Positions 16,672 to 51,573 of a stretch of DNA of 64,000 nt are shown here, in pieces. Position numbers and translations under genes: made by a program. Source of the DNA: Patescibacteria group bacterium (GTDB lineage Bacteria; Patescibacteriota; Patescibacteriia; 2-12-FULL-60-25). The notes below the pieces were generated by a model. It was not told where the DNA came from, made no database searches, and was given only the letters and a program-made list of their open reading frames with translations. The stretch lies in assembly GCA_028688515.1 (NCBI GenBank), contig JAQTXZ010000001.1:434001-498000 (forward strand), given 5' to 3'. Position 1 is the first letter of the stretch. The number at the start of each line of letters is the position of its first letter.

Positions 16672-16708
16672 GACTTACAACCGATGCAATTTGTGATATA
16701 CTTCATTT

Positions 16709-16836
16709 TGTCATCTCGACCGTAGCTTGCGTAGTGGAGAGATCGCCTATGCCAAATTACAAAGTTGCTTTGTTGGTTTGCATCAACGATTTCTCGACTC
16801 CGTAAACTACGCTCGAAATGACAGAGGGAGGGAATG
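16709..16836. repeat. Inverted-repeat spacer of the TCATCTCGACC type
   Basis: The left end (GTCATCTCGACCGTAGC) and right end (CTACGCTCGAAATGACAG) are roughly complementary; the inner halves are GTGGAGAGATCG and CGATTTCTCGACTCCG. The right half is nearly the same as the in-frame insert of uvrB (45653-45696). TAATTCTTAATTCATAATTC words follow up to the next start codon. Confidence 0.75.
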
Positions 16837-48545: not shown

Positions 48546-49856
48546 ATGCCACATACATCTCGCAAAAAAAGATCTTCCAACACGGCGTACCATAAAACTC
48601 ACGCAAAGCCGGTTTCCAAGGCAAAGAAAGTTGCGCCTAAAAAGCATGCTGTTGCAAAAAAAGCCAAGCCCGTCTCTTCTCATAAACCGACAAAGACAAC
48701 AAAGTCTGCAAAGCCGGTAATAAAAGCTCAGGCGCAGCCAAAAGTACCTTACATAAAAGTCCAGCCGCCTTCTACGGAGGATTTGGATAAATTGTTTGAT
48801 AAAGCCCGCACCAGAAGTTTTATGACCGAGACGGAAATTCTTTATGCTTTTCCGGATATCGAAGATTATATTCCAACATACGAGGCCTTCATCGACAGGC
48901 TTGATGCAGCCGGAATATCCGTCGTGGAAATGAAAGAGGGGATTTTGGGACGCAAATCAGAACGTCAAACGATTATGACGTCGATGAACAGCGCCATACC
49001 CGAGCTCGGCGTTAAAGTCGACCCGTTTGATTTGACTGCAGATCACATCCAAATCTACTTGCGTGAAATCGGCAAAATCCCGCTGCTTAAAGCTGAAGAA
49101 GAAATTTCGCTCGCCAAGCGCAAAGAAAAAGGAGATAAAGAAGCCGAGAAAAAATTAATCGAGGCGAACCTGCGCCTTGTTGTTTCAATTGCCAAAAAAT
49201 TCATGGGCAAGTCTTTAGCGTTGCTGGATTTAATTCAGGAAGGCAACATCGGTTTGTTTCGCGCGGTTAAAAAGTTTGAATATCGCAAAGGTTATAAATT
49301 TTCGACTTATGCAACATGGTGGATCAGACAAGCCATCACTCGCGCCTTGGCCGACCAAAGCAGAACCATTCGTATTCCGGTTCACATGGTCGAGACGATC
49401 AACAAATTCCAGCAGATCGAACGCCAATTGATTCAAGATCTTGGACGCGAACCGCTGCCGGAAGAAATTGCCGCAGAAATGGGCGAGGAAGTCGACAAAG
49501 TCCGCCACATCATCAAGATTTCTCAAGACACTGTTTCGCTCGAAACATCTGTCGGCGAAGATGATGAAGATTCGACGCTCGAAGATTTTATCGAAGACAT
49601 CAAAAACGTCACACCCGACAGAGCTGCCGGACTTCAGTTGCTTAAAGATTACGTCAAAGAAATCATCAAAGATCTTTCACCGCGCGAACAAAAAATTCTC
49701 GAAATGCGTTTTGGCCTCGTAGACGGCGTAAGCCACACGCTCGAAGAAGTCGGCAAAGAATTTGACGTCACGCGCGAGCGCATCCGCCAGATTGAATCAA
49801 AAGCGCTCGAAAAGATACAGCAGCACCCGCTGATAAAGAGGTTGGCGGATTACTAA
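48546..49856 (+). CDS. rpoD: Primary sigma factor (sigma-70 family)
   Basis: 436 residues. A Lys/Ala-rich N-terminal extension (1-70) is followed by a short region 1.1-like segment, region 1.2 ([23 protein letters not shown]), region 2 with the -10 recognition helix [18 protein letters not shown], region 3 and region 4 with [17 protein letters not shown]. It recognises the TTGACA/TATAAT promoters listed here. The 105-bp gap to dnaG can fold so that CTTTATGG pairs with CCATAAG next to the start codon. Confidence 0.97.
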
Positions 49857-49863
49857 GAAAACG

Positions 49864-49966
49864 GCGTCCTCAGAGCGTCCTTGGAACTTCCTGCAAGCGT
49901 CCTTAAACGTCTAGAGCAACTGCGCTTCGGGACGCATTAGGATGTTTCAGTACGCTCTGAGGACGC
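49864..49966 (+). other. Structured element with a 15-bp terminal stem after rpoD
   Basis: GCGTCCTCAGAGCGT (49864-49878) is the exact complement of ACGCTCTGAGGACGC (49952-49966). The 73 bases between contain further GCGTCC and GGACGC words that can pair. It lies 7 bp after the rpoD stop codon and before the terminator; it may be a processed RNA, an mRNA-stability element or a repeat. Confidence 0.6.
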
Positions 49967-49970
49967 TAAA

Positions 49971-49992
49971 ATCCGGCTTGACCGGGTTTTTT
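49971..49992 (+). terminator. Terminator after rpoD
   Basis: ATCCGG and CCGGGT pair around the loop CTTGA, followed by six T. The loop and stem also hold the -35 box of the next transcription unit. Confidence 0.8.
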
Positions 49993-50005
49993 GGTGTGCT
50001 ATCAT
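49978..50005 (+). promoter_or_regulatory. Promoter of candidate RNA unit 1
   Basis: TTGACC, 16 bp, TATCAT, with an extended TGC before the -10 box. The same layout recurs at 50524-50551. Confidence 0.65.
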
Positions 50006-50011
50006 ATATCG

Positions 50012-50515
50012 GCACCTTGTAAAAGTCCGGCGTCAGCAAAAGGGCTAAGCGCGCCAAGAGTCCCAACAGACGGAGTGCGCGCCGAATCACCTGATGCGTA
50101 TGGAGCAAAAACTCTATGCCGAGACTAAGACGCTTTGATGCGCTGCTACGGCAGAAATCCACCACCACATACGGAGTTCGTAAATAAGGTACCCTTGCGG
50201 GAAACCAAAAAAAGCGAGCTCATGCAAAAGGAAGGACGCGCGTCCAACAGGTGGTTTGCATCAACGGTACGGTAAGAACCGAATGGTCTGGGGAGCGTGG
50301 TAGTGGCTATCGGCATAGCGTCCTAGCTGCAAGCGAAACATTTCGCGTCGCGTATCCTGATGGGTAGGTGTTATCCGTGGAACGTAGCGGATAATGTAAA
50401 AAGCCGGCAGGGAACTTTCCTCTGCGAGCCGAGTAACTGGAATCATCCATCCCACCCAATACCATGTCTGCAAGGTGCACTACTCCGCGACGTTACTCAA
50501 ACGTCGCTTTTTCTT
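50012..50515 (+). ncRNA. Candidate non-coding RNA, unit 1
   Basis: About 500 nt between a good promoter and an intrinsic terminator with no convincing protein frame on either strand and no Shine-Dalgarno site. Several hairpins are visible: ATGCAAA/TTTGCAT enclosing GGACGCGCGTCC (50224-50272), TTATCCG/CGGATAA (50371-50395), and a GCGCGC pair (50055-50090). The promoter, first bases (GCACCTT) and terminator match those of unit 2. It does not match RNase P RNA, tmRNA, 6S or SRP RNA by eye. Confidence 0.5.
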
Positions 50516-50517
50516 TT
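50487..50517 (+). terminator. Terminator of candidate RNA unit 1
   Basis: GCGACGTT and AACGTCGC pair around a 5-nt loop, followed by TTTTTCTTTT. Confidence 0.88.
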
Positions 50518-50523
50518 GTAATC

Positions 50524-50551
50524 TTGACAGGCAATTTAAGAGTGCTATCAT
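50524..50551 (+). promoter_or_regulatory. Promoter of candidate RNA unit 2
   Basis: TTGACA, 16 bp, TATCAT, with an extended TGC before the -10 box. It begins only a few bases after the unit 1 terminator. Confidence 0.75.
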
Positions 50552-50557
50552 ATAGGC

Positions 50558-50840
50558 GCACCTTTAAGCAACGTCGATCGAACTACCTCGGACGGGTGAG
50601 CGTCTTGCACAACCTTAACACGGTAACCTGACGCAATTAGCTCATCCCAGACAGTGGGCTCTTGCCCCAGATCGATTACGCGATGTACCATCATCGCAAG
50701 GACAGTGGCGGCTATCGTCGTTCATGCAGCCTGCATCTCGATGCCCCTCCAAACGCTCGAAAGAGCAAACCTGCCACATCCGTCCATTCCTGCTTACTGG
50801 TGCCAATCTGCTGCGACGTAACTAAAACGTCGCTTTTTCT
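50558..50840 (+). ncRNA. Candidate non-coding RNA, unit 2
   Basis: About 280 nt with the same promoter type, start (GCACCTT) and terminator as unit 1 but a mostly different interior. The open frames are short, without ribosome sites or recognisable proteins. It lies directly before the tRNA-Asn promoter. Confidence 0.5.
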
Positions 50841-50843
50841 TTT
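50813..50843 (+). terminator. Terminator of candidate RNA unit 2
   Basis: GCGACGT and ACGTCGC pair around a 7-nt loop, followed by TTTTTCTTTT, almost identical to the unit 1 terminator. Confidence 0.88.
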
Positions 50844-50867
50844 GTAAAAACAGCTACTTGCGGCCTC

Positions 50868-50896
50868 TTGCCAAACAAACGAATTTTGGTTATATT
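50868..50896 (+). promoter_or_regulatory. Promoter of tRNA-Asn
   Basis: TTGCCA, 17 bp, TATATT, about 75 bp before the tRNA. Confidence 0.65.
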
Positions 50897-50970: not shown

Positions 50971-51045
50971 TCCGGGGTAGCTCAGCGGTAGAGCAGTTGA
51001 CTGTTAATCAATTGGTCGTGGGTTCGAACCCCACCCCCGGAGCCA
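50971..51045 (+). tRNA. tRNA-Asn (anticodon GTT)
   Basis: Acceptor TCCGGGG/CCCCGGA pairs perfectly. The anticodon loop CTGTTAA carries GTT. T loop TTCGAAC, discriminator G and encoded CCA (51043-51045). Confidence 0.96.
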
Positions 51046-51096: not shown

Positions 51097-51573
51097 ATGA
51101 AGTTCTCTAATCTCGCCAAGCTGATTTCCACGATTCTTATCTGCGAACTAGCAGGTGTGATTGGAGCAGTATTTACAACGTCATCCATAGGTGGTTGGTA
51201 TTCCGGTCTAATCAAGCCTGACTTTTCTCCACCAAACTGGATATTCGGTCCAGTCTGGACAACATTGTACTTCCTCATGGGCGTTGCTGCGTACCTAATC
51301 TGGAACAAGGGCTTGAATCGCAAGAGCGTAAAAATCGCACTCAGCTTCTTCATCGCCCAACTTATTTTGAATATTTTTTGGTCAATCATATTCTTTGGCC
51401 TGCATTCACCTGGCGGAGCCATGATTGAAATCGTCTTTCTTTGGCTAACCATTCTCGCCACGATCATTACCTTTTATAAAATCTTTCGTCCGGCCGCCTG
51501 GCTCTTGGTGCCATATATTCTTTGGGTAAGCTTTGCCGGGTACCTTAATTATTCAATTTGGATTTTGAATTAA
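51097..51573 (+). CDS. tspO: TspO/MBR family tryptophan-rich sensory protein
   Basis: 158 residues with five membrane helices. Family blocks: WYSGLIKPDFSPPNWIFGPVW near the N-terminus, the NIFWSIIFFGLH segment, and the C-terminal PYILWVSFAGYLNYSIWILN. TspO proteins bind porphyrins and cholesterol-like ligands and affect stress responses; the ligand here is unknown. Monocistronic with a leaderless-type promoter. Confidence 0.92.
   Translation: MKFSNLAKLISTILICELAGVIGAVFTTSSIGGWYSGLIKPDFSPPNWIFGPVWTTLYFLMGVAAYLIWNKGLNRKSVKIALSFFIAQLILNIFWSIIFFGLHSPGGAMIEIVFLWLTILATIITFYKIFRPAAWLLVPYILWVSFAGYLNYSIWILN

Follow-up and report, generated by a model that had tools for sequence, protein, structure and literature searches.

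What lies between rpoD (48546–49856, + strand, identified from its open reading frame and from relatives) and tRNA-Asn(GTT) (50971–51045, + strand) in the genome of this tiny, uncultured member of the Patescibacteria? The 64,000-nt stretch analyzed here (the window) had been predicted from its letters to hold at this site two tandem look-alike units, each with a promoter, a GCACCTT start and a terminator, and each of these elements was located. We consider it almost certain that the two units, named W1 and W2, are real non-coding RNA genes. What kind of RNA they specify is less clear, and is approached below through the design of the locus, its relatives, its predicted folds and a comparison with known large RNAs.

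Design of the locus

W1 (50012–50517, + strand; 506 nt including the terminator) is annotated from folding and synteny as a large structured ncRNA gene, and W2 (50558–50843, + strand; 286 nt including the terminator) from folding as a second one. Up to the terminator, the interiors measure about 475 nt and 255 nt, respectively, compared to about 500 and 280 nt as first given. As read from the sequence, the W1 promoter (49978–50005, + strand) is TTGACC-16-TATCAT, with 10/12 matches, and that of W2 (50524–50551, + strand) is TTGACA-16-TATCAT, with 11/12 matches; both carry TGC before the -10 box. The predicted starts, GCACCTT at 50012 and 50558, each lie 7 nt past the -10 box. Intrinsic terminators, likewise read from the sequence, end the units at 50487–50517 (hairpin 50487–50507) and 50813–50843 (hairpin 50813–50833), both on the + strand, and TTTTTCTTTT follows directly 3' of both hairpins. 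The promoter/start segments of the two units are 76% identical over 42 nt (blastn E about 4e-4) and the terminators 94% identical over 35 nt (E about 5e-8), while the interiors show no alignable similarity. One short motif, GTRGYGGCTATCG, is common to the interiors of W1 (50300–50312) and W2 (50705–50717) at 11/13 positions, perhaps by chance.

The rpoD terminator hairpin (49972–49992, + strand; CCGG-cttga-CCGG followed by a T run, from the sequence) overlaps the -35 box of W1, which is located within the loop and the 3' arm of this hairpin, and the same overlap can be read in the other carrier genomes. At the other end, a promoter-like site for tRNA-Asn (50868–50896, + strand, from the sequence) is separate from the units, so that tRNA-Asn need not depend on W1 or W2. 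An inverted repeat with 18-nt arms of 94% complementarity is located between rpoD and the W1 promoter (49864–49966). A hit to the MIR949 model at 49863–49967 falls on this repeat, outside the units, and scores 26.6 bits against a cut-off of 100; it was taken as chance. A TspO/MBR family membrane protein (51097–51573, Pfam PF03073) is encoded 3' of tRNA-Asn.

The original prediction did not include a further feature of both units: the 5' end of the RNA, GCACCUU, is predicted to pair with a stretch just 5' of the terminator, forming a helix that we call P1. In W1, P1 has 9 bp, between 50012–50020 and 50470–50478 (3' arm GCAAGGTGC). In W2, the 5' arm (50558–50568) consists of GCACC and an inner extension and the 3' arm (50793–50803) of the inner extension and GGTGC, with 50558–50562 pairing with 50799–50803. 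All four arms are on the + strand and come from folding prediction.

Relatives in the genus and turnover of the interior

To find relatives, we searched 30 genomes of the genus and family for rpoD and read the DNA that follows the gene. Five more units, of 331–785 nt, were found at the same site in four other species of the genus: A1 (genome G001, 702 nt), D1 (G004, 711 nt), F1 (G006, 785 nt), and B1 and B2 (G002, 593 and 331 nt), which are again in tandem. A promoter-like sequence, P1 and a terminator are present in all five, and the P1 variants of B2 (GCACUUG/CAAGUGC) and F1 are compensated. The predicted pairing probability of P1 is 0.98–1.0 in W1 and W2, and 0.88–1.0 across all seven units. 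In G003 and G008 no unit is present and tRNA-Asn directly follows rpoD; in G005 the site likewise holds no unit and another gene follows rpoD. G007, with no rpoD match, was left out of the presence/absence call. A scan of a genome collection with dnaG yielded 80 loci, of which the four closest carry the unit (apparently the same four species); none was seen in the remaining loci, where recognition relied on tRNA distance and GCACCTT. Noncoding gaps after rpoD also occur in other lineages, and their relation to the units is not established. In a tree of dnaG and rpoD with 16 rows, the five carriers form one clade (support 95/95), so that the units may have a single origin in this clade.

Some neighboring tRNA genes are themselves interrupted. 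In G001, tRNA-Asn behind rpoD (L006 42–310, − strand) contains a group I intron (Rfam RF00028, 72 bits) accompanied by an HNH-like ORF (Pfam PF01844, E 1e-4). Just after rpoD in another genome of the family (L019), tRNA-Asn is interrupted by about 250 nt after GACTGT; this insert appears intron-like by eye and has no Rfam call.

Copies outside the site were not detected: blastn searches of the genus and family genomes with W1, W2, D1, F1 and B2 gave short matches at chance level only. A W1 match in G006 (E 3.8e-4, 27 nt) was rejected as a copy, being at an unrelated locus (rsmH/mraZ by eye). Among phages, plasmids and viral contigs the units had no match. No relative that aligns with W1 or W2 was present in the genomes searched, and for this reason the reading of these two units rests on the promoter/terminator design, P1, folding and synteny.

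Rfam, at gathering as well as permissive thresholds (E up to 10), returned no match within W1 or W2, in agreement with the earlier by-eye impression that they resemble none of RNase P RNA, tmRNA, 6S RNA and SRP RNA. In four relatives the units were also unmatched; the only hits there were to tRNAs, to the group I intron of tRNA-Asn and, upstream and below threshold, to a snoRNA model. This genome encodes RNase P RNA and tmRNA elsewhere (G000:C4:848402-848903 and G000:C4:616189-616582, respectively), and both lie outside the units in 8/8 genomes tested; no separate SRP RNA was located. Nor do the units code for protein, as had been proposed from the lack of a convincing frame: 13 of the 14 indels between A1 and D1 are not multiples of three, no reading frame is conserved, and substitutions are spread over the codon positions as 28/27/34. 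W1 does fall within the size range of known RNAs. However, given the silence of Rfam at E up to 10, the separate loci of RNase P RNA and tmRNA in the eight genomes and the frame-breaking indels, it is scarcely conceivable that the units represent an already described RNA (such as RNase P, tmRNA or SRP) diverged past recognition or a short protein gene.

The rate of change of the units differs between their parts. A1 and D1 are 87% identical, compared to 68–70% at 4-fold sites of rpoD and dnaG between the same genomes, which indicates short-term constraint on the RNA. Between G002 and G004, identity falls to 50% overall and about 72% in the 3' domain (blastn), compared to 80% for RNase P RNA and 89% for tmRNA, and the alignment of D1 and B1 is mainly limited to the 3' 240 nt. 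When this genome (G000) is compared with any other species, the identity of W1 equals or barely exceeds that of shuffled sequences, while RNase P RNA retains 67–75% and tmRNA 77–80%. The shuffle-level identity of the interiors beyond the closest pair could reflect weak constraint. A covariance model could be built from relatives, as had been suggested (R1, for the 3' domain of A1, D1 and B1), but it misses W1 and F1, even without filters. Across 41 genomes of the order, R1 matches only the three genomes used to build it; its silence across 144 genomes of the class is weak evidence, the three source genomes being absent from that sample. The units thus keep a frame of site, promoter, P1 and terminator around an interior that turns over.

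Such a pattern invites the idea of a hypervariable or modular RNA locus, in which the frame of promoter, P1 and terminator stays in place around interiors that are exchanged or diversify, one conceivable setting being an arms race with phages or the host cell. Site and ends are common to five species, W1 and W2 share their ends (76% and 94%) around unalignable interiors, and the model of the A1/D1/B1 3' domain matches neither F1 nor W1. However, the change from A1 to D1 is gradual (87%) and B1 keeps the 3' domain of D1 at about 72%, as plain fast divergence would also produce, and no donor sequence for the interiors was found in the searched genomes, phages and plasmids. We consider this explanation quite unlikely. 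In its one-site version, the frame would be fixed and include the overlap of the rpoD terminator with the promoter, the interior would be swapped or diversified from one species and one tandem copy to the next, and the ends would be kept alike within a genome. This version is unlikely; a possible driver would be conflict with phages or, these bacteria being presumably epibiotic, with their host cell. If true, it would make the locus an RNA counterpart of a variable cassette. The original prediction had offered duplicated sRNA genes or a modular locus; the common frame, now extended by P1, is upheld, and with unalignable interiors duplication followed by extreme divergence is indistinguishable from interior replacement. 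Similarly, the term "sRNA" holds as far as non-coding RNA is concerned, but at 286–785 nt these are large ncRNAs rather than typical sRNAs.

Predicted folds and compensatory changes

The units fold more stably than expected from shuffled sequence. For the whole units, folding z-scores are -3.7 (W1) and -4.9 (W2). For the cores, sense-strand values are -4.3 (W1), -3.8 (W2), -6.8 (A1), -5.3 (D1), -5.5 (B1), -2.0 (B2) and -7.0 (F1), compared to antisense values of -2.0, -1.3, -4.2, -2.5, -0.8, -1.9 and -2.4, respectively. The sense strand has the lower value in 7/7 units, clearly in six and marginally in B2, whose folding signal is weak. RNase P RNA and tmRNA of the same genome as W1 score -5.6 and -6.0; 20 control windows average -0.7, including one that covers W2 and another that covers an intergenic inverted repeat. 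Elsewhere in the window, an intergenic inverted-repeat stretch at 16707–16830 also folds strongly (z about -5.9 for a 500-nt window) and is possibly a small repeat element.

Comparison between species adds to this signal. The RNAalifold energy is 5.9 SD lower than that of column-shuffled alignments for A1/D1, and 8.1 SD lower for the 3' 240 nt of D1/A1/B1. RNAalifold places 47 pairs in the 3' 180 nt of D1/A1/B1, with 92% of cells paired; slid versions of the structure are only 30–42% paired, a lenient control since the structure was derived from the tested sequences. Two-sided compensatory changes occur in 13 of these 47 pairs (3' ~180 nt), a count reached in 0/500 shuffles, with the set comprising three sequences, the structure derived from the same three, and the shuffles ignoring relatedness. 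Thirteen two-sided changes are hard to reach without a conserved fold in this domain. Covariation in hairpins, proposed at the outset as a check, is found here for D1/A1/B1, as is characteristic of a structured ncRNA gene. The two findings named beforehand as refuting the proposal, a known RNA in Rfam and protein-coding codon variation among homologues, did not turn up. With Rfam silent, no coding signal, syntenic units, covariation in the relatives' 3' domain and folding on the sense strand, the reading of W1 and W2 as new non-coding RNAs is well supported.

These results also bear on whether the units are decaying, weakly functional transcription units of which the promoter and terminator alone are kept. 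Interior similarity is lost between species and other members of the genus lack the units, as decay would predict. However, the compensatory changes among D1, A1 and B1, the constraint on A1/D1 relative to 4-fold sites and folding comparable to that of RNase P RNA all speak against decay, which we regard as very unlikely.

The predicted folds are multi-branched and contain many A-rich hairpin loops. Four arms appear in the predicted folds of A1, B1 and F1 and in the centroid of W1; since D1 and W1 differ in their minimum-energy folds, a common four-arm architecture can be put forward as a hypothesis only. CTAAAC is kept in an 11-nt hairpin loop of D1, A1 and B1 (A3 columns 112–122; L007, L006 and L008) whose stem varies, and could be a tertiary contact or a binding site.

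The position beside rpoD raises the question of a 6S-like RNA that binds RNA polymerase. Like 6S RNA, the units are stand-alone ncRNAs with paired ends, and they adjoin rpoD; no 6S RNA was matched across eight genomes of the genus, an absence that says little because the model matches just 5/14 control genomes. The units themselves also lack a 6S match. Their predicted folds have several branches, in contrast to the single rod with a central bubble of 6S RNA, and they measure 286–785 nt compared to the 187 positions of the model. We find this role highly improbable.

Candidate modes of action

The units could instead regulate in trans, as long sRNAs with loops that pair to mRNAs or other RNAs; the interior would track changing targets while P1 and the terminator stabilize the molecule. 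Their own promoter and terminator, the fast turnover of the interior and the many A-rich hairpin loops are compatible with such a role. However, the conserved part of A1, D1 and B1 is a multi-branch fold with compensatory changes, not a conserved single-stranded seed, and 500–785 nt is large for an antisense RNA. This is a possibility, though a rather unlikely one. Action through the fold is favored over antisense pairing by the large size of the RNAs, their closed ends and a fold that is kept as the sequence turns over.

The explanation that we prefer, to which we give about an even chance as a whole, is that W1 and W2 are clade-specific genes for large structural ncRNAs that act through their fold. 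They would be stand-alone members of a family limited to one clade of a genus of Uhrbacteria-related Patescibacteria and fixed between rpoD and tRNA-Asn. Each unit would have its own extended -10 sigma-70 promoter, with transcription beginning at GCACC; the RNA's 5' end would pair with the 3' end in P1, closing a multi-branched fold, with the intrinsic terminator directly after it. The RNA would be stable and fairly abundant. It would encode no peptide and present no single fixed antisense sequence, and selection would retain the frame and the fold but little of the sequence. For the mode of action itself, slightly short of an even chance, we propose a structural scaffold, either the core of an RNP or an RNA-only assembly, in the manner of GOLLD, ROOL or OLE.

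These three RNAs are the nearest analogy that we infer for the function of the units. GOLLD is a large multi-branched bacterial ncRNA found near tRNAs, its 3' part conserved and its 5' part variable (PMC12286853). The units are similarly large, multi-branched by prediction and near a tRNA, and D1 and B1 align mainly in the 3' 240 nt; they differ in being clade-restricted and in lying next to rpoD on the chromosome, not in a phage or prophage. ROOL, of similar size, is a protein-free intergenic gene near tRNA whose function is unknown (PMC12286853); the units differ in their lack of an Rfam match and of a phage context, and in their sizes of 286–785 nt. OLE, also large and ornately structured, assembles into an RNA-only dimer (PMC12286853). 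The units may be likened to it as large RNAs with predicted structure, and differ in having no Rfam match. By prediction and comparison, the units are large, multi-branched, stand-alone structured ncRNAs, as in this group. However, the Rfam covariance models of GOLLD, ROOL and OLE match neither the units (E up to 10) nor the four relatives, and the setting is a chromosomal rpoD/tRNA-Asn locus in five species rather than a phage or prophage; membership in these families is therefore not claimed.

What is odd about the locus is that its frame is conserved although, within a single genus, the interiors diverge until they no longer align. Large structured RNAs are scarce in bacteria, and our searches of the open-access literature found none described in Patescibacteria. 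An RNA family that keeps its site, ends and fold amid sequence turnover would escape sequence-based surveys, which suggests that more such RNAs are present in small, tightly packed genomes. The units are also a compact system in which to ask which features of a large RNA selection maintains.
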